Part shown: positions 1 through 48,581 of the stretch, one piece after another
How positions within the stretch are numbered: the first letter of the stretch is position 1
Layout of the letters: each line of letters begins with the position of its first letter
The notes under the pieces: generated by a model
What the model was told of the DNA's origin: nothing
Databases searched by the model: none
The model's input: only the letters and a program-made list of their open reading frames with translations
Origin: Pedobacter puniceum
GTDB lineage: Bacteria > Bacteroidota > Bacteroidia > Sphingobacteriales > Sphingobacteriaceae
DNA length: 64,000 nucleotides
Direction: 5' to 3'
Assembly: GCF_009674685.1 (NCBI RefSeq)
Contig: NZ_WKJI01000003.1
Span: 1 to 64,000, forward strand
Program-made: the position numbers and the translations under genes

Positions 1-3845
<3,845 letters not shown>

Positions 3846-16300: not shown

Positions 16301-19300
16301 CCGTTTCCCTGATAACAGCTAATATCAACAATAGCAATTATCAGGATATTGTGGTTGCAAATTCTCCAATAACACTTCAAATTAAAGATAATGATGAAGC
16401 TACTTTAACCCTACAAGCAGCCCAAATTGCAGAAGGTGATAATGGCGTAACGCAAATCAATTTCGATGTTGTTTTAAATAAACAAACTTCACGTGGTTTT
16501 GATGTAAGTTACCGTACTACAGATGCCACAGCAACAGTTGCAGACCAAGATTATATCGCAAAAGCAGAAACTATCGCTTTTGCTGGTACTGCCAACGAGC
16601 GTAAAACCATCACCATCAACATAAACGGAGATATTAATATAGAGCGAGATGAGCAATTTAACCTTATCCTTGAGCCCCTGATTGATAATTTCAATAACCG
16701 TTTAAGCATCCCTATCAATACAGTTACAGGCACTATTCTTAATGATGATGATGCTCAAGTAAGCATCACTAAAACAGATGGTGCCGAAGGTGGCGCTCAA
16801 GTAAGTTTTATTTTTAGTTTGCCACCAAATGTAGTTACTGATGAGCCTATCCAGATAGACTATCAGCTTATGGGCACTGCTTTAGCTGCCGGTGTAGATT
16901 ATACTGGCGCAAACTTGGGAAGTATTACCATACTGCCTTATCAAAATAGTGCTACCCTTAATCTTCCGGTTGTTGATGATAGCTTAATAGAGGCGGATGA
17001 AACTCTTAGTATCAGCGTAAGCGCATTAAACACAGTTTATAGTAGCGCAATTACTTTAAATCCGCTTATTCCAACGGCTATCATTAGAGATAACGATGAA
17101 GCTACCTTAAGTATCAGTGGTCCTATCAGCGTAAGCGAAGGAAATACAGGTACAACCGCTTTAACATTTACAGTTGGTTTAGATAAAAATACAGGAAGAA
17201 ACTTTAGCATTAATTTTACCACTGCCGATGGTAGTGCTACTGTTGCAGCTAACGATTATATCCCGCGTAACGGCACACTTAATTTTGCTGGTAATGCATC
17301 AGAAAGTTACCCTATTACCATATTGGTTAATGGCGATAGAAATATAGAACAAACAGAAGATTTCTTTTTGAATTTGATTGGCTTAAGCGATAATTTTAAT
17401 AATCGTTTAAAGTTAGCAGGCTTGCCAGCTAGAGGAGTTATTTTAGATGATGATAATATCCCGGCTAATAGAAATATCATGATTACGGCTTTAAACGGCT
17501 CAGAAAGTGGTACTGATATAAGGTTTAGATTTAGTTTTCCGCCACAGGTAGTAAGTGATGTTGCAACAACCATACCTTACGCTTTAACAGGTACTGCTAT
17601 AGCGGCCGATTTTACAGGGGCTTTAGCTGGTACAGTTACTATACCTGCCGGGCAAAATAGTGTGTTATTAAGCTTACCTGTTGTAAACGATGAAATTATT
17701 GAAGGAAAAGAAACTTTGATTTTAACTTCCGGAGCTGTTATCAATAATAGTTTTAATGGTATAACGGTAGTCAATTCGCCAGCACAAGCAGAAATTGAAG
17801 ATAATGATACCGGCGTATTAAGCATCCAAAACATAGAATTAGATGAAGGTAATTTAGGAACAAGCGAAGCAGTTTTTACGGTTAGCTTAAATAAACAAAC
17901 TAGCTTACCTTTTACCTTAAGTTATAGTAGTGCAGATGTTACGGCTACCACTGCCAATGCAGATTATGTACCTATCAACGCACAATTGAGTTTTACAGGT
18001 AATGCCAATGAAGCAAGAAACATACGTATTCTTGTTAATGGCGATAGAAAGCTTGAAGCTGATGAAATATTGAGAGTAGCTTTAGGAGCTATTTCTAATA
18101 CTTTTGAAGGCAGATTAACATTGCAAAACTCATCAGCAACAGCTACAATTAAGAATGATGACTCTGCACAAATTACTGTTACCGGAGTAAATGGCGCAGA
18201 AGCAGGTCAACAAGCAGCCAGGTTTATTTTTAGTTTCCCTGCCGGAGTTACGGCTGATATTCCAACCGTTATCAACTACACCCTAGCTGGTACGGCTACT
18301 GCCGGAGATACCGATTATAAAGGCTCTATAAATGGTGTTATAGCTATCCCTGCTGGGGCAGAAAGGGTAATTTTAGATTTACCTGTTTTAGATGATGATA
18401 TTATCGAAGAGGATGAAACCATTACAATAGCTATCAATTCTATTAATAGTAATTACAGTAGTAGTATAAGTTTTAATCCGGTTTTACCAACCCTTAGAAT
18501 TATTGATAATGATGTTGCTACCTTAAGAATAAGCGATGCTATCAGGATAAATGAAGGCAATAATGGCACTACGCAATTCAATTTTACCGTTACGCTTGAT
18601 AAAGCAACTGGTAATAATTTTACTTTAAACTACGCAACACAAGACGGCTCTGCAACCACAACCGATAATGATTATAATACAGCTAACGGTGTGTTAAGCT
18701 TTGCAGGAACTACCGGAGAAACACGTACAGTAACCGTTTTTGTAAATGCTGATTTAAAATTAGAAGGTAACGAAAACTTTAATTTTATAATTTCTGGTTT
18801 AAGCAACAACTTTAATAATCGTTTAAGTATTCCGGTAAATAGCAGCATGGGTACCATTTTAAATGATGATGATGGTATCATCACCATTTCTAAAATAGAC
18901 GGTACAGAAGGTTTACAAGATGCTAGATTTATATTTAGTTTGCCACCTGGAGTAAACTCAGACCAACCTATTAATATTACTTACCGTTTGGCGGGTACAG
19001 CCGGAAGTAGTGATTATACAGCTAACCCTGCAAGCGGTAGTATGGTAATCCCGGCTGGGCAAAATAGCGTAGCGCTTCAGTTAGCCGTAGCTGATGATTT
19101 GGTTTTAGAAGAAACAGAAACAGTAACGCTAAATAATATACAAATAGCAAACGCTTATAATAATGTGAGTTTAGCACAGCCGGTACCAATTATTAATATT
19201 TTTGATAATGATGTTGCCAATCTTACTATCACCTCACCAGCGCCAACTTTAGAAGGGAATTTGGGTCAAAAGAGCTTTAACTTTAATATCACTTTAGATA

Positions 19301-20814
19301 AAGCAACCGACCGTTCTTTTACCCTAGACTATAATACTTACGATATTTCTGCCACCACCGCTAATAGAGATTATGAAAGTCGTACAGGCAGAGTTTCATT
19401 TGCAGGTTTTGCTGGCGAAACTAAAACCATTGCAGTACCTGTAATTGGTGATATAGAATTAGAAAATAATGAAACTTTTGGATTCAGAATTTTTGGCTTA
19501 TCAACCGATTTTGCTGGTAAAATGATTTTAGGTAATGATGCAAATGCGATTATCCAGAATGATGATATTGGCCCGGTGGCTAATGATGATAGGGTAAGTA
19601 CTTTAGAAGATACACCTATAACATTTTCTGTTACAGATAATGATTTCCATGCCGATGGTATCAATATCGGAAGTGTAAATATGGTTTCTAATCCGCAAAA
19701 GGGCAAAGTGCAAATGATGCAAAATGGTAAGGCTATTTATACTCCGTCATTAAATGAATTTGGTTTTGATAGCTTTACTTATACAGTAAGAGATGCTTTA
19801 GGCAGGTTGTCTAATATCGCTACGGTAAGCATCACCATAGTAGCTGTAAATGATGCTCCTATAGCTTTAAACGATGAGTTTTATGTAAAAAAAGATAGCA
19901 CTATAAGAGCTAGTGTTTCACTTAATGATAGTGACCCAGACCAAGACCCACTACGTTTTAGAGTGTTACAAAGTACTTCCAAAGGTAGTTTAGCCCAGTT
20001 TGATGAATCTGACGGTTCTTTTATTTATATTCCTAACCGCAATTTTAAAGGTACAGATAGATTTACTTATATACTTACAGACCCATCAGGCTTAAGAGAT
20101 ACTGCAACAGCAACATTATTTGTACAGCCAGTGGTTACTGTTAGTCTTACGCCAAGTGTATCATTGTTAAATGAAGGAGATACCTTAATAGTTACAGCTA
20201 AACTTACCGAGTCTTTATTCCAAGATGTAAATTTTGTACTGAACTTTGCTGGAACTGCTACACAAGATAAAGACTATGCTTTAAGCGGTAATTTTGATAC
20301 GATGATGATTCCGGCAGGAGACACTATTACCACCCAAAAGTTTAGTTTAATAGCTTTAAAAGATTTCTTAAAAGAAGGCCAAGAAAGCGTTGAAATTTCT
20401 ATTGTAGCACCAGACCCAGCTGCTTTTGTGAGAATTGGTACCGGTACAGATGTCATCATTACAGATTTTTATCCGGAAGATAAACCTACAGGGCCAGAAG
20501 AAAACGGAGAAATAAACCCAGATCCTTATATGTCTCCTAACGGTGATGGGTTAGGGAACGAGAAGTTTATCATTTACAACATAGAGCGTTTCCCGGATAA
20601 CGAGGTAATTATTTATAACCGTTGGGGAAATGAGGTGTACAAAACAAAAGGTTATAATAATAAGGATAATGCATTTGCAGGGTTTTCAAATATTGGTATA
20701 TTAGCTAATAGCCAAAGCCCTGTAATTGATGGTGTTTACTTCTTCATGATTTATACCAAATCATCAGATGGAAAGCAAAAAGCTAATAAAGGTTATGTAA
20801 TTATAAGAAGATAA
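7321..20814 (+). CDS. Giant Calx-beta repeat adhesin with T9SS type B C-terminus
   Basis: The 4497-residue product has a long signal region (hydrophobic core at about residues 37-53, ending SQFSFAEG) and an N-terminal unique region of about 600 residues with a conserved-repeat (DUF11-like) segment near 540-690. It then has about 29 tandem Calx-beta domains, each ending in a variant of NDD or DNDxA. After the first, they alternate strictly between two subtypes: A (start like ITKxDGxEG, later FSFPxGV) and B (start like LTLxGPxxxxEGN, later FxGxxxE and INGDxKIE). Fourteen A-B pairs were counted by eye. Two cadherin-like tandem domains follow (ANDDRVSTLEDTP, ALNDEFYVKKDS), then one more Calx-beta-like domain and a gliding-motility-type (type B) sorting domain (MSPNGDG, IIYNRWGNEVYK). 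It is probably a calcium-stiffened surface adhesin secreted by T9SS. The PorP/SprF gene immediately downstream fits type B secretion. Confidence 0.9.
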   Translation: MLPEVTALRKSVLKKRNGKSFNLVRPNQELKDTFFKCISVFFLLWIGVSQFSFAEGSKDLITTGGGVGHRAFLLSTTITSTNSPFPTLGTVKVYVRAGESIYLGSSAQQIGNGRMNVRAPGGATYTSAALAAGIGLITNKNQEDAGPLPNAGGYTPWILPVGVAQEGVWEIDFISPDVGAGQNANALRTNANAAWVQANSTPLIAAFDVSVRNSANTAFINGRAFMNIFVGSLGDFDANFTGKFKILTKDGYQYDVDNNGQSGFVFSFFANNKGFKDNAGNPIYRSINTLSGTVPVQDPRAIDTGTDITHKIFFNTPDASMPTTAATPSGSTWLYTTPTSPQAANFLFEGKEGTQNQAGTAPLGANLTFETNQTGSYIIDMDINQNGVFNDAIDRRLTGVATSGTNTIYWDGLNGLGAKVQGNFTFSPSNLNLSLVGGEVHFPFLDVENNINGIIIRRLNGVNAPNDIVYWNDTDISSTTNPSNPRNTSVSGISSTTNGHKWGSNAYSGTAFGNEVGLDTWTYVISNTVLPFMNITLKEADLEVVSITPTKTSYCVGENISYVVRVRNNGPDAVSGAKFAFNYPTQFTVSGTSSAVTTGTATISSSATIAGQYTATLDMSNNAVISFTINGTLNNYPGGTLNTSASILRPVDVTDPDATNEDALPPTDPLIECNAGTVGCNNIKEDTSVTINVRTISVASAIVAEGTGGTRNLSFPVSLSAVSACDISVDYSITHNTTQASDFAGVTNGTITIPAGSTSANILIPIATDNIIEANETFTLTLANPTGGNTIFMGTATGTINNDDNAQITITKIDGNEENAIPARFIFSFPPGVFADANTEVQYELSGTAIGNGPDYPEALTGSVIIPAGQQSATLNLNTVNDDIVEGTETVIIDILRINSPYSLPLGTNITLNPIVPTLNIFDNDVATLTISNPITLVEGNSGTTAFNYTVTLNKATSSSFTVNYNTSNNTATIADNDYVTSSGTLTFNGNLNEVQNITVLVNGDQKLEANETFNVLLASLNNNFGGRLTIPSPNTSGTILNDDAANITITKVDGVEGGQNVRFVFTLDNGKTADQNLSIPYSLLGSALANGTDYLGAAVGNVILPAGQNSTFLELFIVDDQIVEGNEDLTLSTGAIANPYGITVTNSPQTVTITDNDNANISISNVTETEGNNGNKIFSFNVTLNNAVKESFSVNYFTTNGTALAGEDYQAVASGNLGFSGNAGEVRTISITVNGDEKIEANEFFNVTLQNLSKNFNNHLTIGNASATGSIMNDDTSTIQISSSNGNETGQLAGTFTFSFTTGFTVDRPTEISYTLAGSATTSADYIGVTSGTITIPAGQNSATLTLPVLDDNTVEGTETIILSSSLVNSPYAISVSNSPQSLNILDNDTGTLTLIGPPDVTEGADATSKLVQFQVQLNKATERPFAVDYDTNNLSATSGEDYITENGSLSFSGILNEIRTISVTINGDAKIEADELFNLALSNLSENFGGLLTLANASATAKILNDDAANISITAINGAEGGANGAFRFSFPANVTSDQNTIINYILSGVATSADYVANPSPVNITIPAGQNSVQLNIDVIDDILVEGNEQLQLSAVGVSSAYPISLMNNTASLSISDNDSAQILVTAPPASLEGNFGSNTQIFTLRLTAATAQPFSIPYQTVNISANAGEDYVLNAGTINFNGLLNEEQTVEIVINGDTKVEPDEQYNLVLGNVSNHFQNRLSIPVNSSTASILNDDGGVIRMRVANGSEDGVDGKIRFEFLNGATAAQPIVLNYNLGGTALATGVNADYSANFPSTITIPAGASFAEVTLNIVNDAQVENTETVEVLGLVLGSVYPGISIDAARPILNIADNDQAELVLSGPPSVLEGDTGFTTLTYTVKLTKATATGFNINYGTQDNGATTANADYIASSGTLNFTGLADETKTFDVIINGDNDIELNELFNIRLFGLDNNFNNLLVVQGSPFAVNILNDDNDNINITKLNAEEGVNNGSFIFSLPVGVVASENLTIDYVIDGTALAGTDHQTLSGFIILPAGSNAVSLPIAVNDDLIVEGTETVRITATVRPNTLSITINNPQESINIRDNDEAILTINELSQPELNSGTSNMLFTVKLDKQTALPFTLAYASADVTASAGEDYQAIPAGALLSFNGTANEEATISIPINGDNKIEADEVFNIILGALSNQFEGRLTIPAHIVNATIENDDAATISITKQDGKEGVNNAQFIFSFPSGFSSDKETIINFSLGGTANGAGLDYIANPSATAITIPANTTSATLTLNVNDDEIIEFTENVSLSSVTINSTYNGITLNPLLPTLQIEDNDIAQLALTGSTSVNEGNNGTTAVTYTLTLNKATTSPFRVDYQTTGNSATLADQDYLDLSGFVDFFGLAGETKTFTLFVRGDRKIEADESLFIQVNAPNINFDNRLSIQGSPLALQILNDDLGNITITKEDGEEGVKDAVFRFSLPPDITADQPITINYILSGTATQVLDFDALSSSITLNAGANSVVLPVQIIDDAIVEDIETLVLSAALPVNVYGVTLTNASQNVQILDNDIARLSLIGPVPTNEGNSVLSPLVFSVSIDKQVAKPFTINYQTINGTASVTDQDYNPTTGILSFNGNAGETINFTVDVRGDRKIEADETFSILLDSLSENFNNRLTITNPSVTATINNDDSGDITLSSLNGKEAGAQKGQFIFSLPTGITVDKPIQINYILTGAALAGSDYNNAASGMVTIPAHTNSAVLDIQVIDDTLLEENETVILSVTSVVNDYNLQMRSSIDTLSIEDNDISTLTLNGPLSITEGNSGTKTLTFEVKLDKAVASNFTVYYRTQDATASSTTNDYQSTNGTLSFAGLANETKSVSVTINGDTRVEGTEFFELWLENLSLSFDGRLRIAASPSRGIILDDDNNTLNKTLSITKIDGEEGTNNASFNIAFPSGVTLDTDTEIFYTLGGTAIINQDFQTATTGSLIIPAGQNSVTLNLNVTDDAIVEDTETVSLITANINNSNYQDIVVANSPITLQIKDNDEATLTLQAAQIAEGDNGVTQINFDVVLNKQTSRGFDVSYRTTDATATVADQDYIAKAETIAFAGTANERKTITININGDINIERDEQFNLILEPLIDNFNNRLSIPINTVTGTILNDDDAQVSITKTDGAEGGAQVSFIFSLPPNVVTDEPIQIDYQLMGTALAAGVDYTGANLGSITILPYQNSATLNLPVVDDSLIEADETLSISVSALNTVYSSAITLNPLIPTAIIRDNDEATLSISGPISVSEGNTGTTALTFTVGLDKNTGRNFSINFTTADGSATVAANDYIPRNGTLNFAGNASESYPITILVNGDRNIEQTEDFFLNLIGLSDNFNNRLKLAGLPARGVILDDDNIPANRNIMITALNGSESGTDIRFRFSFPPQVVSDVATTIPYALTGTAIAADFTGALAGTVTIPAGQNSVLLSLPVVNDEIIEGKETLILTSGAVINNSFNGITVVNSPAQAEIEDNDTGVLSIQNIELDEGNLGTSEAVFTVSLNKQTSLPFTLSYSSADVTATTANADYVPINAQLSFTGNANEARNIRILVNGDRKLEADEILRVALGAISNTFEGRLTLQNSSATATIKNDDSAQITVTGVNGAEAGQQAARFIFSFPAGVTADIPTVINYTLAGTATAGDTDYKGSINGVIAIPAGAERVILDLPVLDDDIIEEDETITIAINSINSNYSSSISFNPVLPTLRIIDNDVATLRISDAIRINEGNNGTTQFNFTVTLDKATGNNFTLNYATQDGSATTTDNDYNTANGVLSFAGTTGETRTVTVFVNADLKLEGNENFNFIISGLSNNFNNRLSIPVNSSMGTILNDDDGIITISKIDGTEGLQDARFIFSLPPGVNSDQPINITYRLAGTAGSSDYTANPASGSMVIPAGQNSVALQLAVADDLVLEETETVTLNNIQIANAYNNVSLAQPVPIINIFDNDVANLTITSPAPTLEGNLGQKSFNFNITLDKATDRSFTLDYNTYDISATTANRDYESRTGRVSFAGFAGETKTIAVPVIGDIELENNETFGFRIFGLSTDFAGKMILGNDANAIIQNDDIGPVANDDRVSTLEDTPITFSVTDNDFHADGINIGSVNMVSNPQKGKVQMMQNGKAIYTPSLNEFGFDSFTYTVRDALGRLSNIATVSITIVAVNDAPIALNDEFYVKKDSTIRASVSLNDSDPDQDPLRFRVLQSTSKGSLAQFDESDGSFIYIPNRNFKGTDRFTYILTDPSGLRDTATATLFVQPVVTVSLTPSVSLLNEGDTLIVTAKLTESLFQDVNFVLNFAGTATQDKDYALSGNFDTMMIPAGDTITTQKFSLIALKDFLKEGQESVEISIVAPDPAAFVRIGTGTDVIITDFYPEDKPTGPEENGEINPDPYMSPNGDGLGNEKFIIYNIERFPDNEVIIYNRWGNEVYKTKGYNNKDNAFAGFSNIGILANSQSPVIDGVYFFMIYTKSSDGKQKANKGYVIIRR

Positions 20815-39308: not shown

Positions 39309-39524
39309 CGTTAAGAGATTTAAAGGTCTGTTTGGTAAGTGTAATCTTCTCTTAAATATAGAATTTTAAAGAGTTTAAACGAAATAGTGTTTATTAATGG
39401 AGTAATGGTTTGCAGGTTTGAAATTTGCGGTTTTACTTGCAAGAACTTGTCTGCCCGTTCAAACTTAATGAAAAAAGATGAAGGAAGTAAAACCACTTCG
39501 CCCGCAATTTCTTAAACCTGTTGT

Positions 39525-39872
39525 GTGCGCCTTGAATGGTAACACACTTGCGGAACCGATTACGCTATTGCATTTGGATGGACTGGAAGAAACCGGAACG
39601 TAAAAGGAAAAACCTGATACGATTAGGAGTAGATGCCGACCATGCTTATGCATGGAGCAGGACAAGAAAAGGAGGATGGCGAATAGCCCAAAGCCCAATC
39701 CTTAATACGACCATAACTATTAAACGGTTAAAGCAAAAAGGCTACATACCCATGCTAGAGATTTACACAAAGCTCAACCCATCAGTTTACGAACCGCCGT
39801 ATACGAGAACCGTACGTACGGTGGTGTGAGAGGCGCACTCTGTCAGGTTTCTGGCAGAGCCGTCTACTCGAT
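39525..39872 (+). mobile_element. Group II intron copy 1, internally deleted (348 nt)
   Basis: It keeps 18 nt of the 5' end (GTGCGCCTTGAATGGTAA) and the last 320 or so nt, which are almost identical to copy 2. These include the maturase tail, an intact domain V (39793-39823, with the 2-nt CG bulge and AGAA-type loop) and domain VI ending in CGAT. Domains I to IV are missing. Boundaries GTGCG...AT agree with group II rules, and removing it restores GTTATGC in the attC. It cannot self-splice as it stands. Confidence 0.85.
39548..39829 (+). pseudogene. Group II intron maturase tail (deletion remnant)
   Basis: This is the C-terminal 93 codons of the intron-encoded protein: LRNRLRYCIWMDWKKPERKR through RRLGVDADHAYAW-like sequence, ending EPPYTRTVRTVV inside domain V. 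It lacks the whole reverse-transcriptase domain. It retains GAG where copy 2 has an early TAG, so this copy shows the ancestral C-terminus. Confidence 0.85.
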
Positions 39873-39884
39873 TATGCCCAGTTT

Positions 39885-40334
39885 TTATTTTTCTGTCCAA
39901 TACTTTTCTTTTAAATATTCTGTCTTTTTAATGTCGCAACCTAATACAAATACTCTATAAACAGGTCTGTCTATTTCGTAATATGGTATTTTGTCTTCAA
40001 AATATACTGTTTCCATTGTCTCCAATATGTTTTTTAAATCGTTGATTTTATTTATGTCTGTGGAAAAACCAATGCAATGTGTCTTTGCCCATTTGTCAGA
40101 CTTAATTTGATTAAAAGCGTATTCGACAATTTCAATTTCTGACTTGAAGTATTTCAAATTGTCTTTTTGTCCACGTTCTGTATAATACCAAATATAAAGT
40201 CCGCCTGATTTGTCAATTCCAAAACCTTCATAAATACTGCTTCCGTTTATTGAATAGCTATTAAAGTTGAAACAGTTTTCTTTCATCCAATTTTCAAGTT
40301 CGATTTCTGTCTTTGGTATATAAACACTATCCAT
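39885..40334 (-). CDS. Cassette 4, second gene: hypothetical protein
   Basis: The 149-residue soluble protein has no signal peptide. It starts MDSVYIPKTEIELENWMKEN and looks alpha/beta, with a strand-rich middle (GGLYIWYYTERGQKDNLKYF), a helical segment (EIEIVEYAFNQIKSDKW) and an aromatic end (RPVYRVFVLGCD). I do not recognise the family. It overlaps the end of the upstream gene by 8 bases, so the two form one translationally coupled unit within one cassette. The stop is only 8 bases from the attC core, the tight packing expected of a cassette. In cassette arrays such genes are usually unknown. Confidence 0.72.
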   Translation of the reverse strand: MDSVYIPKTEIELENWMKENCFNFNSYSINGSSIYEGFGIDKSGGLYIWYYTERGQKDNLKYFKSEIEIVEYAFNQIKSDKWAKTHCIGFSTDINKINDLKNILETMETVYFEDKIPYYEIDRPVYRVFVLGCDIKKTEYLKEKYWTEK

Positions 40335-40668
40335 TTGTCAGTTTCTTATATGTAAATGTTCTCAACTCAATTTCAGTCTTTAATTTTTCAAATTCGTTGT
40401 CAAAATATAATTTAAAGAAGTGTTTTACGTCTTCCCAATTGTCAAGCTTAGTTTGAATTTGTTCGTCTTGATTTTCTCCATAAACAAAAAATAGGTCAAG
40501 GTTTTTGTGAACTTCAAGGACAAATTCGTTCTCCATATGTCCAACCCAAAAAGCTCCGTGTTCTTCGTCCATTCGGATTGTTTCTTCAATTGCGGATTTT
40601 ATGTCGTCAAAGGTTGCGTTCTCAACTGAGTCGCCCCAACCTTTTTCTATCCAAATGTTTGTTGTCAT
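40327..40668 (-). CDS. Cassette 4, first gene: hypothetical protein
   Basis: The 113-residue product starts at ATG 40668 (MTTNIWIEKGWGDSVENATF). An earlier ATG at 40692 lies inside the attC core GTTATGC and would add eight residues; both are possible. The protein is acidic, with a helix IKSAIEETIRMDEEHGAFW, a strand pair FVLEVHKNLDLFFVYG and a helical C-terminus (DVKHFFKLYFDNEFEKLKTE). The size, charge and pairing with another small soluble protein would suit an immunity-type protein, but nothing in the sequence proves it. Family unknown. Confidence 0.72.
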   Translation of the reverse strand: MTTNIWIEKGWGDSVENATFDDIKSAIEETIRMDEEHGAFWVGHMENEFVLEVHKNLDLFFVYGENQDEQIQTKLDNWEDVKHFFKLYFDNEFEKLKTEIELRTFTYKKLTNG

Positions 40669-41301
40669 ACGTGTCGTTCTAAAATTGGGCATAACGTTTT
40701 GCGTATATGACTTGTGGCGGTTTTCGAAGCACTTTCTTGTCGGCTGGTACTAAATTTACTTAAAAGCACAAAACTTGAATTTACCACTTTCTCCGCCATA
40801 AGTTATATACGCTGTGTGCGCCTTGAATGGTAAATATAGTTCTTTAAATATAAAGATTAAAGAGTTCCAGAGGGTGTAAGTCCCTTATTCGCTGGGGTAA
40901 CGCCTGGAAGAATTAGCAAGTCGCAAGGTGGCTTAGCGTGAGCGATACACTAAAGTAAGCGAGACTGCAAAAGTCTGCACTGACGAACAGAAACTGGATA
41001 AGAGGCATCATTGAGTGGATGAGATGGCACAGCACATCGAAGTCCAAAGAAAACCAAAAGCTCAAAGATGTAGATTCAGCAGGAGTAGATTGAAGGATAT
41101 TTATCTTACCGAGGGAGATCTCTTAGATTACGAGCTAATCATAAAGAGAAGTCAGCAGAGGTCGTAGTACTTGAGGCAACGAGGTATCAACAAACGATAC
41201 AAGGTCTCACAAACAAGGAAGGACCGAACGTAAATTGGTTCTTAATTTACAAAGGACTGGCGTAAGCCATAGCCCTGTAGAAGCGGAACAGGAAGAACAA
41301 A

Positions 41302-42570
41302 ATTAAAACAAAAGTAAAAGAATTGATTGCACAAGTATTACGTCCCCAAAACCTCCAAAAGGCATTACAACAAGTAATGGCTAATAAAGGAAGTGCTGGT
41401 ATTGATGGTTTAAAAACTACCGATTTAAAAGCCTATGTCCAAAAACATAGGGAAGCGCTACTGGAGTGAATAAAAGAGAACAAATACCTGCCACAATCAA
41501 TTTTAGGAGTAGAGATACCCAAAAGCGGAGGAAAACTTCGTTTATTAGGTATCCCTACGGTTGTAGACCGCCTGCTACAACAAGCCGTATCACAAGTTTT
41601 GACACCAAAGTTCGAGCATGAATTTCATGAAAATAGCTACGGCTTTAGACCCTACAAAAATGCTAGAACAGCAGTAGGGAAAGCATGGAGCAATATCCAC
41701 GAAGGTTATAGCCACATCGTAGCTATCGATTTAGAAACATTCTTTGACGAGGTAGACCATTGCCTGCTACTAAACCTGATTTACCAAAAGGTAAAATGCC
41801 CGCTTACGCTAAGACTGATACGGAAATGGCTACGAGCACCGATACAGATTAACGGCAAATTAGTAAAACGAAGCAAAGGAGTGCCGCAAGGCAGTCCATT
41901 AAGCCCACTACTTTCTAATATCCTGCTGGGTGAGTTGGACAAAGAATTGGAAAGGAGAAAGCTAAGGTTTGTACGCTATGCCGATGATTTCAGTATCTAT
42001 TGCAAACTTCCCTCTGATGCAAAACTGGCAAGCAAAGCCATTACCAAATACTTGGTAGACAAGCTAAAGCTGAAAGTGAATAAGTCAAAGAGCGGGATAG
42101 TAAAACCCAGTAATTTTACCATACTAGGATTTACATTTGCACCCACGTATCAAAAAGGAGTAAAAGGGGAATATCAGTTAACAGTAGGAGAAAAAGCATG
42201 GGCAAAGCTGAAAGAGAAGTTAAAGGAAGTTACCCGGAAAACCTCACCCAAAAGTCTATCAGAACGCATTAATAAAATCAACGAGATTACCCGAGGCTGG
42301 CTTACCTACTTTAAAGGAAGTAGCATTGTAGGTAAACTGCGAGATGTGGACGGCTGGTTGCGTAACCGCCTGCGCTATTGCATTTGGACGGACTGGAAGA
42401 AACCCGAACGTAAAAGGAAAAACCTGATACGATTAGGAGTAGATGCCGACCATGCTTATGCATGGAGCAGGACAAGAAAAGGGGGATGGCGAATAGCCCA
42501 AAGCCCAATCCTTAATACGACCATAACTATTAAACGGTTAAAGCAAAAAGGCTACATACCCATGCTATAG
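41302..42570 (+). pseudogene. ltrA: Group II intron reverse transcriptase/maturase, disrupted
   Basis: The frame is readable from ATT AAA ACA AAA (41302, where an ATG is expected), through VKELIAQVLRPQNLQKALQQ and GSAGIDGLK, to an in-frame TGA at 41467-41469 within LLE*IKENKYLPQ, where a Trp codon is likely. After it come YGFRPYKNARTAV, the RT core YADD (VRYADDFSIY), QGSPLSPLLSNILL and domain X (EITRGWLTYFKGS). A second change, TAG at 42568, removes the last 20 or so residues still present in copy 1. The remaining open part (41599-42570) could give a protein lacking RT motifs 0 to 1. All three changes are single-base, which points to recent inactivation. Confidence 0.88.
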
Positions 42571-42625
42571 ATTTACACAAAGCTCAACCCATCAGTTTAC
42601 GAACCGCCGTATACGAGAACCGTAC

Positions 42626-42650
42626 AGCCTGTCCCGATTTTTCATCGGGA
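42626..42650 (+). repeat. 25-nt hairpin insertion in intron domain V
   Basis: Relative to copy 1, one G of the domain V bulge is replaced by 25 nt containing TCCCGAT and ATCGGGA, exact complements across a 5-nt loop. It resembles a small REP-type palindrome and would displace the catalytic bulge. Confidence 0.85.
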
Positions 42651-42729
42651 TACGGTGGTGTGAGAGGCGCACTCTGTCAGGTTTCTGGCAGAGCCGTCTA
42701 CTCGATTAGCAGTAGTTGTTCTTCGACCG

Positions 42730-43317
42730 TCAAGTATGTCTTTTACAGTATTCAATTGTTTTTTTGTCAAGGTCGTTAAGCAAATTTTTATGTTCAACTG
42801 TCTTGTAAATTTCTAAAGTCCCTTTGTAATCTTTCTCTTTGAATTTATGTCTAGCCCGGTCAATTTTCATTAGGTCAAAATGATTGTTGTAGTCAGCCTG
42901 TGCTTTCTCATTTTGTTCCTTAACAAACTTGTCTTGCAGTTTAGCTGCTTCAACTAATTTGTCACACGAACCTTGAAAAAAGTCGTCAACTAAATAGTCA
43001 AGATCATGTAAAATGTGTCTGAATGCAAGTAATTTATCGTCTGATTGAAAGTCTGGGAATTGTCTTTTGTCTGCAAGTCCAAGATGGTCAAGATAAAAAG
43101 TGTGTCCTACTTGATAGTTGTCAAACTGATAACCAAGCTCACCGATTGAAAACCGATAACCAATAATAAAACTTTTGCGTCCGTTTTTAAAAGTCGCCAC
43201 AGTAAAATGTCCGCCTGAACCTTTGCCATTTTCGTAATTGTCCAAAGTAAATCCATGTCGTCCTAAAAACGGCACCAAAATCTCAAGTCCTTTTGTTAAG
43301 TCTTTTAATGGTTCCAT
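42730..43317 (-). CDS. Cassette 3 gene: hypothetical protein
   Basis: The 195-residue soluble product is not recognised. It has an N-terminal alpha/beta part (LEILVPFLGRHGFTLDNYEN, then HFTVATFKNGRKSFIIGYRF) and a C-terminal helical part (CDKLVEAAKLQDKFVKEQNE, later ARHKFKEKDYKGTLEIYKTV) that reads like a short tetratricopeptide-type repeat. The start lies 17 bases after the cassette core GTTAGCA, and the stop lies 19 bases before the attC split by intron copy 2. It is the only gene of a cassette of about 0.6 kb (introns excluded), the usual cassette size. Confidence 0.75.
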   Translation of the reverse strand: MEPLKDLTKGLEILVPFLGRHGFTLDNYENGKGSGGHFTVATFKNGRKSFIIGYRFSIGELGYQFDNYQVGHTFYLDHLGLADKRQFPDFQSDDKLLAFRHILHDLDYLVDDFFQGSCDKLVEAAKLQDKFVKEQNEKAQADYNNHFDLMKIDRARHKFKEKDYKGTLEIYKTVEHKNLLNDLDKKTIEYCKRHT

Positions 43318-43333
43318 GGTCTGTTACAATTAC

Positions 43334-43433
43334 TGCTAACGTTACGGCGGCTTGGCGAAGTTCGCCTTTACCACCGGGCTTTGTTTTACTAACATACGAA
43401 AAGGGGCGAATTTTGCCAAACCGCCTGTTGTGT
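43334..43433 (-). other. attC-like site B
   Basis: This is a 100-bp palindrome. Plus-strand arms GGCGGCTTGGCGAAGTTCGCC and the complement of GGCGAATTTTGCCAAACCGCC pair over about 20 positions with few mismatches. On the minus strand it opens with ACACAAC and closes with GTTAGCA, the core of cassette 3. Confidence 0.8.
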
Positions 43434-43623
43434 GATGTTCAGAACCACTGAACACCCCGAGTTCTGCCTTTTTAGGCATTTCAACTATATTTTTTAAGAT
43501 ATTTCTTTAATCTTCGATTGGGGAAGTATCATTAAAAAAATCTATAAAGTTCTTTTGATGAGGAATTTAGTTAGAAAAAAACTTGACTTTGTCATTTTTT
43601 TCGAATAACTTCAATCAAGCTTT

Positions 43624-43752
43624 TTAAGCGACCCGCTTTGAAAATGTATTTTCAGCGAATCTTTTCGCAAAGCTTGAAGCAGCACTTTTCGTGTTGCTAT
43701 TCCTCATGAAAAGCATACTTTGAATAGTTGTAAAGGCCAGGCAGAATTTCAT
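43624..43752 (-). CDS. Cassette 2: 42-residue ORF, uncertain
   Basis: The ATG overlaps the cassette core (GTTGTATG), just as several cassette ORFs do. The product is basic (MKFCLAFTTIQSMLFMRNSN, ending FSKRVA) with a short hydrophobic start. A further 190 bp before the next attC holds no good ORF, only AT-rich sequence and a small hairpin (TGCCT and AGGCA). The cassette may be a microprotein cassette or essentially non-coding. A longer frame extending back through attC A is rejected because it would code through the palindrome. Confidence 0.35.
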   Translation of the reverse strand: MKFCLAFTTIQSMLFMRNSNTKSAASSFAKRFAENTFSKRVA

Positions 43753-43883
43753 ACAACGGTTTGCGGCTTGGCGTAGTGGCGGATTTTTAGCACAAAAGTT
43801 CAATCGAAGAACTGCACTTGACCCTACCACAAAACTGTCATACGAAGCACTGAACCCGCCATTACGCCAAACCGCTGTTAGGT
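43751..43883 (-). other. attC-like site A
   Basis: The site is 133 bp. Arms GCGGCTTGGCGTAGTGGCGG and CCGCCATTACGCCAAACCGC pair over 20 positions with two G-T-type differences. On the minus strand it opens with ACCTAAC (a perfect RYYYAAC) and closes with GTTGTAT, the core of cassette 2. Confidence 0.85.
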
Positions 43884-43949
43884 GCTGGCCTTCTTGTTTT
43901 TCGTCCGACTAAGATACTTTTTTTATGTTTAAGTCAGTCGTTTTGAAGT

Positions 43950-45338
43950 CTAAAATGCTTGTCCAATGCCAAAGTAAAATAGCCTGTCTTCTTTTGAATG
44001 ACCATAGTCAAATGATAAAATGGTGGATTGATTCCAAGCAATTCTAAGTCCACCGCCATAAGAAGTTTTAATGTTTTTAAAGTTTAAGTCTTGCCAACGG
44101 TCTCTTACTGTACCTGCGTCAAAGAACGGTGCTACGGCAAAGGCAAATCTTTGCTTTCCAATTTGAGTTTCTGCAAGTCTTACTCTCAATTCTACATTGG
44201 TAAACCACATTGAACGAGCTAAAAATCGGTTGGCTCTGTAGCCACGCAATGATTGTCTTCCGCCTAAAGCATTGATACTTCCTTCGGGACTCCATTGGTC
44301 TTGAAATTCAAAAAACGGAGCATTGTTTCCAAAAATGTTTCCTACACCGAATCGTCCTGCTAAAACAGTTCTTTTACCAACAGGTATTTTCTGATAGGCT
44401 CGACCTTGAATAAAAAGTTTGTCAAAATCGAATTGCGAACCTATGTATTTGCTTGAGTATTCATTGGCAATTTCAAAGTAATACCCTTTCGTTGGGTCGG
44501 GTTCAAAATCTCTTGTGTCAAATATCAATGCAGTTTGAATAATGGAAACCCAACCACCGTCAACACCTGAAATTAATCCGTCTTCAAAATCACGTCTTAA
44601 AAGTGAAATTCCGTTTGGTGCGGTTGTGTTTTGTCCTGTAATTGGGTCAATTGCTTCCGCATTCATTCCTTCAAAAGTTGAATAACTCAAATGCTGTATT
44701 TCATATCCGCCCATTATACGCCATTTTCCTTTTCCAAGTGCGTAATCGGCTTTAAGGTTGAGCATATATTCGGTTTCTCTGAATCGGTTTGAGAGTGCAT
44801 CCGTTACAAAATCAGCTTCTCCAACGCCACCTGGTCTTAATGTTTTTCTCGCTCTGTCAAATTCTCGATAAGTTGAAAAATTTGTGTTTTCGTCAGAAGG
44901 TAAGCGAAGTTGACCGAGCGTAGATTCAGTTAGTCCAAAATAAAGGTTGGCTGGATTTTGTTGTGCTTTGAAGTCCACTTTAAATCTCCAACGTGTTCCT
45001 TTGTAGTAGGGGACATCCAATTTTAAAATTAATTCTCTTGCATTTGAGGTGTAATAAGCCGCATTGGCTGTCAGTTTCATTAGGTAGGGCGTGTATGGAA
45101 ACAAAGGGTTTTCACGATTGCCATTCCAATAGGTGTTCGTCCTTACTCCAAATCCGAAACCTGTTACTGGGTCGGAAGAAAAGTCTGGTATTCCTGTAAA
45201 AAACGTTCCTTCTCGCTTTTTAGCAAGGTCATCATCAGACATTCTTTTCGATTTGATGAATGAAAGACTGTCTTTTTCTTGTGCCTTAACGATTGTGATG
45301 GAGAACAGAATAAATAAGGTTGCTATTATACGCTTCAT
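43950..45338 (-). CDS. Omp85/BamA-like outer-membrane protein (cassette 1)
   Basis: The 462-residue product has a signal peptide ending TIVKAQE (about residue 19). It has no obvious POTRA domains, then a barrel that opens with FFTGIPDFSSDPVTGFGFG and ends with DYGHSKEDRLFYFGIGQAF, a classic aromatic C-terminus. The Omp85 hallmark is seen as GGRQSLRGYRANRF (the VRGF/Y-type loop motif), followed by NVELRVRL and FFDAGTVRD. It fits the short surface-antigen (D15-like) group. It lies downstream of a histidine kinase and response regulator in the same cassette, so it may be the controlled output. This is an unusual cargo for a gene cassette. Confidence 0.85.
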   Translation of the reverse strand: MKRIIATLFILFSITIVKAQEKDSLSFIKSKRMSDDDLAKKREGTFFTGIPDFSSDPVTGFGFGVRTNTYWNGNRENPLFPYTPYLMKLTANAAYYTSNARELILKLDVPYYKGTRWRFKVDFKAQQNPANLYFGLTESTLGQLRLPSDENTNFSTYREFDRARKTLRPGGVGEADFVTDALSNRFRETEYMLNLKADYALGKGKWRIMGGYEIQHLSYSTFEGMNAEAIDPITGQNTTAPNGISLLRRDFEDGLISGVDGGWVSIIQTALIFDTRDFEPDPTKGYYFEIANEYSSKYIGSQFDFDKLFIQGRAYQKIPVGKRTVLAGRFGVGNIFGNNAPFFEFQDQWSPEGSINALGGRQSLRGYRANRFLARSMWFTNVELRVRLAETQIGKQRFAFAVAPFFDAGTVRDRWQDLNFKNIKTSYGGGLRIAWNQSTILSFDYGHSKEDRLFYFGIGQAF

Positions 45339-45404
45339 AAATTGGATAATTTTTTAATTACCCTGCAAAGCTCCGAAGCGATTTAGAAGAAATTTTGAAT
45401 TGTC

Positions 45405-46700
45405 CTAGAAGCTGATTTTAAAAGTGTGTGTTTCTTGATGAAATTCATAGGCTATTGTCCATTGATGTCTTTTGCAGATTTGCTCAACTATAGACAATCC
45501 AAGCCCACTTCCTGAACTTTCGTCAGAAGTTTTTTTAAACCTTTTGAAAAGCTGTTCCTTTTCTAACGCAATGCTTCCTGAATTGCTAATATTAAAGCCC
45601 GATTTACTCAACCTAACTTCAACTGTTCCTTTTTGAATGTTATGTCTTATCGAATTGAGCAATAAATTGTTGATGAGAATTTCAATCAGAATTTTATTTC
45701 CTGTAACCACACAATCTTCGTCTATTGATGATTTTAGGTTCAGGTCTTTGTTTGCAAAATGTTCATGCAATTGCTCTATACATTCTGCTGTCAATTCGCT
45801 CAAATTTATTGTTTCGCTATCATCAAACTGATGGTTTTCTATTTTGGCAAGCAACAATAGATTTTTGTTGATGCGTGAAACCCTTGTCAATGCTTTATTT
45901 ATGTCTTCAATAATTTGGTACTGCCTGTCTGTTAAAGCTTCTTTTTGCAGCAGTATGTCCAATTTGTTTTTGATGATTGCCAAAGGAGTTTGCAATTCGT
46001 GAGATGCATTTTCTGTAAATTCTTTTTGCGATTTGTAAACCGAAACCGTGTGTTCGATTAATTTATTCAAAGCCACATTCAATTCTTCAAACTCAAGGAT
46101 AGTTGATTTTTCAAACGAAATATTGCTTTGTGAATTGAGATTAAATGCTTTCAACTTCGCCAAAGTATTTTTAAAAGGTTGCCATAGTTTTACGGATAAT
46201 CGTTTGTTTAGAATCAGAAAGCCGACAACCATAATCAGAAAAAACAAAAAGGTCAGAACAGCTATTGCAACGACCGTTTCTTCGGTTTCTTCAACATTGG
46301 TTTCTACGGTGAGTAAATAATATTCTCCATTTATTTCAATCACTCTCGAAAGCCCCCGAAATCGGTCAATATCTTGGTGAGTTACATAGGGGTTTTTTCT
46401 TGATACTGTGTAGGTGCTGTCTTTTCTGTTTTTTTCTAAAGTGGTCTTTTGGAGGTTGGTTCCGGGTTGAATTTTGTTCCAAAGTAATATGCTTTGATTT
46501 AATTCAATTTCAGACAGTTGTAATTTATTGAGTTCGTTTTCCGTTCTGTCAGCAACAATTTCATTATGCTCGTCCAATTCACGAAGCCAAATGCTATCAA
46601 CCAAATAAAGGTATGCAGGAACACTTGCCGCTAATACAATAAGTGCGTAAATGGTGAATGATTTAAGCGATTTGTTTAGTAATCTATTCATCCTTCCCAT
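45405..46700 (-). CDS. Sensor histidine kinase (cassette 1)
   Basis: The 431-residue membrane kinase has a first transmembrane helix at about residues 14-33, an extracytoplasmic sensor segment of about 110 residues (up to YYLLTVETNVEETEET), a second helix at about 143-163, and a short linker resembling HAMP. The DHp helix carries the phospho-acceptor His in FTENASHELQTPLAIIKN. The ATPase domain has the N box ILINNLLLNSIRHN and G box GSGSGLGLSIVEQICK. It starts inside the end of the response regulator gene (13-base overlap), so the pair is coupled. The sensed signal is unknown. Confidence 0.93.
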   Translation of the reverse strand: MGRMNRLLNKSLKSFTIYALIVLAASVPAYLYLVDSIWLRELDEHNEIVADRTENELNKLQLSEIELNQSILLWNKIQPGTNLQKTTLEKNRKDSTYTVSRKNPYVTHQDIDRFRGLSRVIEINGEYYLLTVETNVEETEETVVAIAVLTFLFFLIMVVGFLILNKRLSVKLWQPFKNTLAKLKAFNLNSQSNISFEKSTILEFEELNVALNKLIEHTVSVYKSQKEFTENASHELQTPLAIIKNKLDILLQKEALTDRQYQIIEDINKALTRVSRINKNLLLLAKIENHQFDDSETINLSELTAECIEQLHEHFANKDLNLKSSIDEDCVVTGNKILIEILINNLLLNSIRHNIQKGTVEVRLSKSGFNISNSGSIALEKEQLFKRFKKTSDESSGSGLGLSIVEQICKRHQWTIAYEFHQETHTFKISF

Positions 46701-47362
46701 TTATAACCTGTTCCGTAAACAGTCTTTAAATAACTTTCGCATCCAGCTTCACTCAATTTCTTTTTTAAGTTTTTGATATGAGCGTAAACAAAATCGTGAT
46801 TGTCTAACATATCTGCAAAATCACCTGAAAGATGTTCAGCTAAGGTGCTTTTTGAAATTACTCTGTTTTTATTTCCGACAAAGTAGAGCAATAAATCAAA
46901 TTCTTTTTTGGTTAGAATAACAGGTTGATTATGAACTGAAATAGTCTTTGCAAGCAAGTCTATTTCTAATTCATTTTGTCGAACGGTATTTGAATTTCCG
47001 AATTGTTTTCTTCGGATAACCGAGTAAATTCTTGCTGCTAATTCAGAAAGATGAAAAGGCTTTGTCAAATAGTCGTCTGCACCAATTTGAAGTCCTTTTA
47101 TTTTGTCGTCTAATGCGTTTTTTGCCGAAATGATAATTACACCGTCTTGCTTGTTTTGCTTTTTTAGTTCTTCTAAAATTTTCATTCCGTTGCCGTCTGG
47201 CAACATAATGTCTAACAAGATGCAGTCGTAATTAAATGATTCAATTTTCTCCAATGCCTGATTAAAAGTTCTTGCAAACTCACACAGATAGTTCTCTTCC
47301 GAAAGATATTCGGAGATGCTATCGGCAAGTTCGTTTTCGTCTTCTATAATCAGTATTTTCAT
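46688..47362 (-). CDS. OmpR-family response regulator (cassette 1)
   Basis: The 224-residue product has a receiver domain (about 1-118) with the acidic pair IEDENE, phospho-acceptor Asp51 in CILLDIMLPDGNG, and conserved Lys in ADDYLTKPFHLSE. A winged-helix DNA-binding domain (about 130-224) has ILTKKEFDLLLYFV, ending VYGTGYKWEG. It should be phosphorylated by the kinase encoded downstream and probably regulates this cassette's Omp85-like gene. The start is 84 bp after the first cassette core, giving room for an own promoter in the leader. Confidence 0.95.
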   Translation of the reverse strand: MKILIIEDENELADSISEYLSEENYLCEFARTFNQALEKIESFNYDCILLDIMLPDGNGMKILEELKKQNKQDGVIIISAKNALDDKIKGLQIGADDYLTKPFHLSELAARIYSVIRRKQFGNSNTVRQNELEIDLLAKTISVHNQPVILTKKEFDLLLYFVGNKNRVISKSTLAEHLSGDFADMLDNHDFVYAHIKNLKKKLSEAGCESYLKTVYGTGYKWEG

Positions 47363-47445
47363 TCGTCAAAGTTACCATTTCAATTTTGTAGAAATTTTGA
47401 ATTTGGTTGTCGGTTTGTCTCGGTGATGTCGTTCTTTAGGCTTGC

Positions 47446-47512
47446 ACCTAACTTATATATATGTGTAGTTTTACTTCCGTAATATACCCTATATTGGGTG
47501 TATTACGGAAGT
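47446..47512 (-). other. Candidate attI: first cassette core plus palindrome
   Basis: On the minus strand GTTAGGT is at 47452-47446. Just upstream (47473-47512) is a palindrome with 17-bp arms, ACTTCCGTAATAtACCC and GGGTgTATTACGGAAGT, with one G-T pair and a 6-nt loop. The position directly after the integrase stop and before the first cassette fits an integration site. The palindrome could instead be the integrase terminator, although no U run follows on that strand. Confidence 0.5.
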
Positions 47513-47543
47513 TTTTATTTCTTTTATTTGTTGAGCACTTCAT

Positions 47544-48581
47544 TTATAAATCATCAAAAGGACTTTTAATATTTTGCAAACTTTTGGTACTCACATGAGT
47601 ATATATTTCAGTTGTTTTACTGCTTTTATGTCCTAAAAGTTCTTGTATATATCTTAAGTCTGTTCCTGCTTCTAATAAATGGGTAGCATAACTATGTCTT
47701 AACCAATGTAAGGTAACAGGTTTATTTATATTCGCTTTAGTTAAAGCCTGTTTCAATACTAAGGCTAAACTTCTTTCATCATATTGTCCTCCTAGCTTTT
47801 GCCCTTCAAATAGCCAATTTTTTGGTCGGTAAATTTTATAATATGCTCTTAACATCTCTAAAATGCTGGCAGATAGAGGGGCTATGCGGTCTTTTTTTCC
47901 TTTTGCCTGCCTTATGATTACTAAATTTCTATCCGAGTCTATATCATTAGGCTTAAGATTTAATAACTCGCTTCTTCTAAGTCCACAGCTATAAATCATG
48001 CTTAACATGGTTTTATGTTTGATATTACTGTGGGCATCTAATATTTTTTTTACCTCGGCTTTACTTAAAACATGCGGTAATACTTTTTCACTCTTAGGAC
48101 GGTAAATCTTATTAATTTGTATAGCTGTATCTTTAATAATAGCAAAATAAAGTTTTATAGCATTTATAATCTGATTTTGATAAGAAGAGGATAGTTTATT
48201 TTTTAAAATAAATTGATGATGATAATTAATAACATCACTGTTGTTAATACTTTCTAAAGGTTTTAAATTATAAAAACTTAAAAATGACTTTAACGCTTCG
48301 GTATAAGTTTTAATAGTACTACTACTGTAACGTTTTGTTCTTAAATAAACGACAAAGTTTTCTAAGGCTGCTATTTTGTCGGTATTAAGAGTTGCTTCTT
48401 GTTCAATCCCAAAGCGTTTTCGGTTTGTACTATTGTCAGGCAAATGCCAAGCACTTAAGGTTTTACTCCATTTTGCATCTTCGAGTTGTTTTAACCGTTC
48501 AATTGCCGAAGAGTTATAATCAAAATATACAACTACTCTTTTTTGCCCTTTATGAGTTTTTATTTCTGCTTTCCAATTCAT
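47544..48581 (-). CDS. Tyrosine recombinase of the cassette array (integrase)
   Basis: The 345-residue product has an extra N-terminal region of about 60 residues (MNWKAEIKTHKGQKRVVVYF), then a SAM-like core-binding domain (LENFVVYLRTKRYSSSTIKT) and a catalytic domain. Catalytic residues are Arg in YSCGLRRSELL, Lys in QAKGKKDRIAPL, His and Arg in LHWLRHSYATHLL, His in ELLGHKSSKTTEIY, and Tyr in IYTHV. The C-terminus NIKSPFDDL recalls the SPLD ending of IntI proteins, but the roughly 20-residue insertion before the HxxR motif typical of IntI is absent. It reads toward the cassettes on the same strand. It is the likely cassette recombinase; a Xer-like role is the alternative. Confidence 0.88.
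   Translation of the reverse strand: MNWKAEIKTHKGQKRVVVYFDYNSSAIERLKQLEDAKWSKTLSAWHLPDNSTNRKRFGIEQEATLNTDKIAALENFVVYLRTKRYSSSTIKTYTEALKSFLSFYNLKPLESINNSDVINYHHQFILKNKLSSSYQNQIINAIKLYFAIIKDTAIQINKIYRPKSEKVLPHVLSKAEVKKILDAHSNIKHKTMLSMIYSCGLRRSELLNLKPNDIDSDRNLVIIRQAKGKKDRIAPLSASILEMLRAYYKIYRPKNWLFEGQKLGGQYDERSLALVLKQALTKANINKPVTLHWLRHSYATHLLEAGTDLRYIQELLGHKSSKTTEIYTHVSTKSLQNIKSPFDDL

Follow-up and report, generated by a model that had tools for sequence, protein, structure and literature searches.

A two-component system and an Omp85-family barrel gene in one, probably mobile, integron-type cassette of Pedobacter puniceum

Integron cassettes are usually viewed as units of one gene and one trait. 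The first bases of a cassette complement its last bases before attC, as both derive from the single attC of the circular form. Cassettes generally hold one open reading frame (ORF), although two or none also occur (PMC8618304). The additional domain specific to the integrase IntI is regarded as both a defining feature and a requirement (PMC9668308; PMC8138268; PMC2426708), and it is needed for IntI activity according to Messier and Roy 2001, as cited in PMC2426708. Earlier integron surveys demanded this domain (PMC2426708, PMC9668308), so platforms without it would be missed by design. For Bacteroidetes proper, IntegronFinder 2.0 listed a single complete integron, in Salinibacter, and otherwise only In0, the latter from an earlier study (PMC9024848), and Bacteroidota are among the known integron hosts (PMC8618304). 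Here we analyse 64,000 nucleotides of Pedobacter puniceum (assembly GCF_009674685.1, contig NZ_WKJI01000003.1, positions 1 to 64,000), hereafter the window. In this 3.9-Mb genome (G000), an integrase gene is followed downstream by a row of attC-like palindromes in the same direction. The first cassette of the array encodes a response regulator (RR), a sensor histidine kinase (HK) and an Omp85-family outer-membrane barrel. We argue that it is very probably a mobile and self-contained unit, derived from a chromosomal operon and carrying its own promoters, in which the RR would drive both its own gene and that of the barrel.

A preliminary description of the window, made from the letters alone, had presented the first cassette as a unit of about 3.6 kb with an RR, an overlapping HK and an Omp85-like protein. 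We confirmed this: the three reading frames are intact and lie between an attC on the left and the attI crossover GTT on the right (Table 1). Of the end points then given, 43882 is at the attC core and 47452 coincides with the crossover base. The HK and RR genes overlap by 13 bp, and a gap of 66 bp, occupied by a predicted operator and promoter, separates HK from Omp85. The kinase has HisKA and HATPase domains and the regulator has receiver and DNA-binding domains, as in two-component systems. The Omp85 protein contains the barrel domain of its superfamily (PF01103, 87.6 bits; NF047779 in Table 1). A domain search gave no POTRA match in it, and the BamA model TIGR03303 scored 39, far under its cut-off of 297; for these reasons we rejected a BamA/TamA assembly factor. 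Its AlphaFold model, of moderate confidence (predicted local distance difference test score, pLDDT, 62), retrieved BamA/TamA-like barrels in a fold search and served solely to call the barrel BamA/TamA-like; there was no sequence match in the PDB. A search of the same genome found no close second copy or paralogue of HK or Omp85.

The RR and Omp85 genes are preceded by a shared 19-bp element, TTCNRAAT-N3-TTCNRAAT. This is a direct repeat with a period of 11 bp, as expected for sites of OmpR/PhoB-type regulators. Allowing at most one mismatch, it occurs upstream of 22 of the 26 homologous RR genes, against 0.1% in shuffled controls, and of 9 of the 10 Omp85 homologues, including one that is encoded away from its RR (L215). 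In most of the homologous RR upstream regions the element ends 19–21 bases before the start codon, with a TAnnTTTG-like element 7–8 bases on. A stricter pattern has two exact matches in the whole genome, both within the first cassette, and nearly all its matches in the relatives searched are at RR–HK operons or their targets. A wider pattern of operator plus promoter matched the RR site alone in this genome, because at the Omp85 promoter GAGCTTTG takes the place of TAnnTT. Since the same repeat stands before both genes, is conserved, and is exact only twice in the genome, the RR probably controls itself and Omp85 through these predicted operators. Most likely, strong chromosomal targets of the RR in its own host are few or absent.

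Some points weigh against our interpretation of the cassette as a whole. The operator motif was first spotted in these very sequences, which makes the shuffled null optimistic and the genome-wide count the fairer control. Some relatives carry the RR–HK pair without Omp85, and the link to the latter is thus not obligatory. Finally, the integrase of the array lacks the domain reported as necessary; this family may be exempt from that requirement, or else the recombination is the work of a different recombinase. The cassette might also be real and mobile while Omp85 is not under RR control, the repeat having another role, e.g. as a promoter feature for another regulator. Binding of the RR to the repeats is a prediction, and two loci (L218 and L226) deviate from the perfect arrangement. 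However, the period is typical of OmpR/PhoB-family sites, the spacing before the promoter-like TAnnTTTG is fixed, and the repeat tracks the RR across families with no exact match elsewhere in this genome. Such another role seems unlikely to us, and we retain control of both genes by the RR. In relatives, the RR–HK pair precedes other envelope genes, encoding PAP2 phosphatases, a sulfatase-fold membrane enzyme, OMP_b-brl_3 barrels and PepSY-like proteins. The cassette had been called a sense-and-remodel-envelope module: the sensing module is there in full, and the gene families are suggestive of envelope remodelling, which makes 'senses and adjusts the envelope' a fair but unproved description. 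It had also been proposed as the newest or most expressed cassette. Our analysis supports neither. Expression need not depend on the first position, since the integrase gene points the same way as the cassettes, a hairpin separates it from attI, and the cassette has its own promoter and operator.

We searched for the same unit in other genomes. In a first survey of 395 genomes of the class, the closest HK (92%) was found in another family (locus L154, genome G248), families following the grouping of the genome collection searched. This copy shows 93.3% DNA identity with the window cassette over 3607 bp, and the match starts exactly at the crossover GTT and ends within attC. A different attC lies beyond the GTT, which makes the unit an internal cassette of another array. 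The housekeeping GTPase EngA has 62% protein identity between the two families. A congener with a complete genome (L214, G013) has the same unit (87%) with the same first base and an attC at either end. It lies 330 kb from the integrase of that genome, next to which the first cassette is a different one. The cassette ends are identical in the three copies, which places the unit in three arrays and two families. Among these copies the ratio of non-synonymous to synonymous substitutions (dN/dS) is 0.05–0.18 for all three genes; the cassette proteins are therefore under purifying selection. Synonymous divergence between the window and L154 rises along 43950–47362, from 0.07 in RR to 0.22 in HK and 0.44 in Omp85, which suggests recombination within the cassette.

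In another congener (L217, G009) the three genes lie between rpmA and a gene of the sulfatase family, with the start of the cassette, GTTAGGTGCAAG. No attC follows the three genes at this locus, and the homology ends where attC would start. The site between rpmA and the sulfatase gene is filled in G009 and empty in both the window genome and G013. In a tree of RR and HK the four copies form one clade (100/99), within which the attC-less copy is nested beside that of G013. The Omp85 gene of this settled copy (L217 10301–11686) is cut short by a premature stop, which leaves 447 of 462 codons. Outside the clade, the operon is found on chromosomes of several families without flanking attC (L155, L157, L225, L226), and these attC-free operons are the likely source of the cassette. 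On the simplest reading, the cassette arose once, then spread from array to array, and in one case settled and lost its attC. The same-ended copies in other arrays support past movement, and we infer that excision and insertion depend on the integrase.

These copies, together with the operator shared by RR and Omp85, bear out the earlier proposal of a single exchangeable cassette with a whole two-component system and an outer-membrane protein. Finding the same three genes between other attC sites or at a chromosomal locus had been suggested as a check, and both situations were found; their presence at the same place in relatives devoid of the array, which had been named as adverse, was not seen, as the carriers examined have them elsewhere. 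An old chromosomal operon flanked by chance by attI- and attC-like repeats, and spread by homologous recombination or other elements, would fit the presence of the operon on the chromosomes of many Bacteroidota. Yet in two other genomes the match starts exactly at the crossover GTT amid different neighbours, homology does not extend past the cassette ends, and the tree groups the copy from the different family with that of the window. We regard chance flanking as very improbable, and a mobile cassette explains these observations better.

The extent of the cassette was assessed from its own ends. Its start GTTAGGTGCAAGCC agrees with the reverse complement of its end GTTAGGTGCTGGCC at 12 of 14 positions. 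In related arrays, 90 of the 126 cassette intervals self-match (at least 6 of 8 variable positions), against 3.5% of crossed pairs; the loci behind these cassette statistics were truncated at 8 kb or where the contig ended. The attC sites were searched with an iterated profile, as an earlier finder anchored on the AAC/GTT arms alone gave too many chance matches. Over the window the profile recovered the four array sites, one of them weakly, and both intact attC of the array give better folds than shuffled sequences do (z −2.1 to −3.0). A decayed internal attC had been named beforehand as evidence against a single cassette; none was found in 43890–47440 at E ≤ 50, where the sole match, on the + strand, is at chance level (E 14). 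At 3576 bp, the cassette is longer than about 95% of a set of 91 self-matched cassettes, whose median is 817 bp; such a length is unusual but not unique. A fusion of two or three ordinary cassettes by internal attC loss, the size being an artefact of decay, is hardly credible: about a quarter of the related-array intervals lack the self-match, a pattern that fusions, or sites missed or misplaced, would leave, but here the interval's own start and end match, RR and HK overlap, the gap before Omp85 is a conserved promoter, the gene order is that of the four attC-free chromosomal loci, and the same unit occurs in two other genomes. The self-match, the crossed-pair control and the lack of anything attC-like inside make a fusion very unlikely, and point to a single cassette.

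Table 1. Features of the array in the window (positions are those of the window).
Feature	Position	Strand	Basis or remark
First cassette body, from the GTT of the crossover (47452) to the AAC of the R'' core (43877)	43877..47452	−	3576 bp; attC included, reaches 43757
Response regulator (RR), OmpR/PhoB-type, 224 aa	46688..47362	−	Response_reg 98 bits, Trans_reg_C 61 bits
Sensor histidine kinase (HK), 431 aa, PorY-family model NF052314	45405..46700	−	429.9 bits, cut-off 350; HisKA + HATPase_c
POTRA-less Omp85-family outer-membrane barrel, 462 aa (DUF5982 + Omp85)	43950..45338	−	NF047779 510.6 bits, cut-off 200; PF01103, PF19412
Predicted RR operator upstream of RR (TTCAAAATTTCTACAAAAT, 11-bp direct repeat)	47383..47401	−	then TAACTTTG promoter element at 47367–47374
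Predicted RR operator upstream of Omp85 (TTCAAAATTTCTTCTAAAT)	45381..45399	−	motif comparison
attC of first cassette, imperfect palindrome, predicted single-strand fold	43755..43880	−	profile E 4e-21; folding z about −2.1 to −2.5
attI region: hairpin 47470–47509, then TATATA-AAGTT crossover	47441..47544	−	right boundary GTT at 47452
Integrase of the platform (Xer-type tyrosine recombinase, 345 aa), lacking the IntI-specific insert	47544..48581	−	NF040815 228.8 bits, cut-off 220
Second cassette, no clear ORF	43448..43757	−	start GTTGTATGAAATTC, end reverse complement GTTGTGTGATGTTC
Third cassette, ORF 42730–43317, no Pfam match	42707..43340	−	attC profile, domain search
attC of third cassette, core split by group II intron	40692..42740	−	profile E 1e-16; junction inside GTT core
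Group II intron	40816–42706	+	Rfam RF02001/RF01998, reverse transcriptase (RT)/maturase ORF
Fourth cassette, ORFs 40327–40692 and 39885–40334	39873..40700	−	ORF calls, attC profile
Last attC, split by internally deleted intron remnant	39407..39885	−	profile E 3.5e-11
Intron remnant	39525–39872	+	RF00029 at 39792–39872

The integrase next to the array scores under the IntI model (TIGR02249, 205.8 against a cut-off of 265). It has about 24 residues where VchIntI (2a3v) has about 66, the insert is absent in an alignment of 14 family members, and a model of the protein served as further evidence. Its residues 1–60 form an extra N-terminal beta-beta-alpha-beta-beta-alpha domain, present in most aligned members. 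A hairpin and a ATATACAAGTT-like sequence 3' of the integrase gene are kept in most of some 50 Bacteroidota loci compared. We kept 80 loci of this integrase family, in Flavobacterium, Pedobacter, Lutibacter, Chitinophagales and others. In most of the loci read, the hairpin-containing attI comes next, followed by attC sites where contigs continue. Across platform loci, 141 attC matches are downstream of the integrase and none upstream, and 146 of 150 are on one strand. The platform thus has the one-orientation attC array starting from the integrase, the attI with a GTT crossover and the complementary R'/R'' ends of integrons, and lacks an IntI integrase with its specific additional domain. We infer that the platform integrase performs the cassette recombination.

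Cassettes with several genes are in the minority on the platform, yet the one studied here is no lone oddity: 25 of the 91 self-matched cassettes have at least two ORFs of at least 60 aa. For example, one of 4.3 kb encodes two aldo/keto reductases and an AraC regulator, and two of 5.0 kb encode a TOTE-type conflict system and a STAND/TPR protein, respectively. In G013, a self-matched cassette of 5.8 kb (L214 2349–8130) adjoins the cassette studied here; by eye it has about seven genes, with HMA-domain-like proteins, an AraC-type regulator and a multicopper-oxidase-like protein, making it a copper/HMA cassette. In G248, an rRNA adenine dimethylase of the Erm/KsgA family (RrnaAD, 284 bits) is encoded between attC sites in the direction opposite to the cassettes (L154 6692–7492, − strand). 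We lean towards the view that Bacteroidota have a widespread integron class of their own, with a Xer-type integrase without the IntI-specific domain, which moves self-regulated operons between families and whose cassettes may settle outside arrays. We found no Bacteroidota integron with this kind of integrase in the open-access papers searched, and reports outside them may exist. Because the phylum is already listed among integron hosts, only this kind of platform would be new.

In the remainder of the window array, two attC sites each have a group II intron copy inserted precisely in their GTT core, in the orientation opposite to the cassettes. Introns targeting attC are known to lodge in this way. 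The RT frame of the long copy is apparently broken by an in-frame stop near 41467. Elsewhere, the window encodes a repetitive putative surface protein of 4497 aa (7321–20814), whose repeats look Calx-beta-like by eye, and a collagen-like protein with GPQG repeats (519–3845).

The history we propose would start with a chromosomal RR–HK–Omp85 operon, widespread in Bacteroidota, that became an integron-type cassette by gaining an attC. This attC would fold as a single strand, and the platform integrase would recombine it with attI or another attC. Once inserted with its own promoters, the cassette would act as a self-contained regulatory unit: the HK may sense an envelope signal, and the RR would bind the repeats before RR and Omp85, thereby driving itself and the POTRA-less barrel. 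In one lineage, the cassette has settled in the chromosome away from arrays, with loss of its attC. Sensor, regulator, operator sites and output gene thus travel jointly, and an array could gain a working sense-and-respond circuit in one step, where a single gene would have to find its regulation. The series from chromosomal operon to cassette, to another family, and to a settled copy would allow both the birth and the end of a cassette to be followed in present-day genomes.

The components resemble known systems to different degrees. The HK exceeds the PorY cut-off (Table 1), but the RR has Response_reg and winged-helix Trans_reg_C domains, is encoded next to the HK, and is not a PorX-type partner. 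PorX has an output domain different from that of OmpR/PhoB-type regulators. By locus numbers, porX is encoded apart from porY (PMC4800418). The pair resembles PmrAB-like envelope systems in that the top scores of the RR include PmrA and RppA and that envelope genes come after the pair in relatives, but every RR score is under the cut-off of those models. The Omp85 protein shares a barrel without POTRA with the 'noNterm' proteins (PMC4104836), and differs from them by a short N-terminal DUF5982 segment, a linked two-component system and its location in a cassette. The closest parallel for the platform is with sedentary chromosomal integrons: both have an integrase gene beside the attachment site, a one-directional array of attC-bounded cassettes, imperfect-palindrome attC with a GTT core, cassette starts complementary to their own attC end, and group II introns in attC. 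In contrast, the platform integrase lacks the IntI-specific insert, scores under the IntI model and is encoded in the cassettes' direction, and the platform has recurring multi-gene cassettes of 3–6 kb, some with their own regulators.

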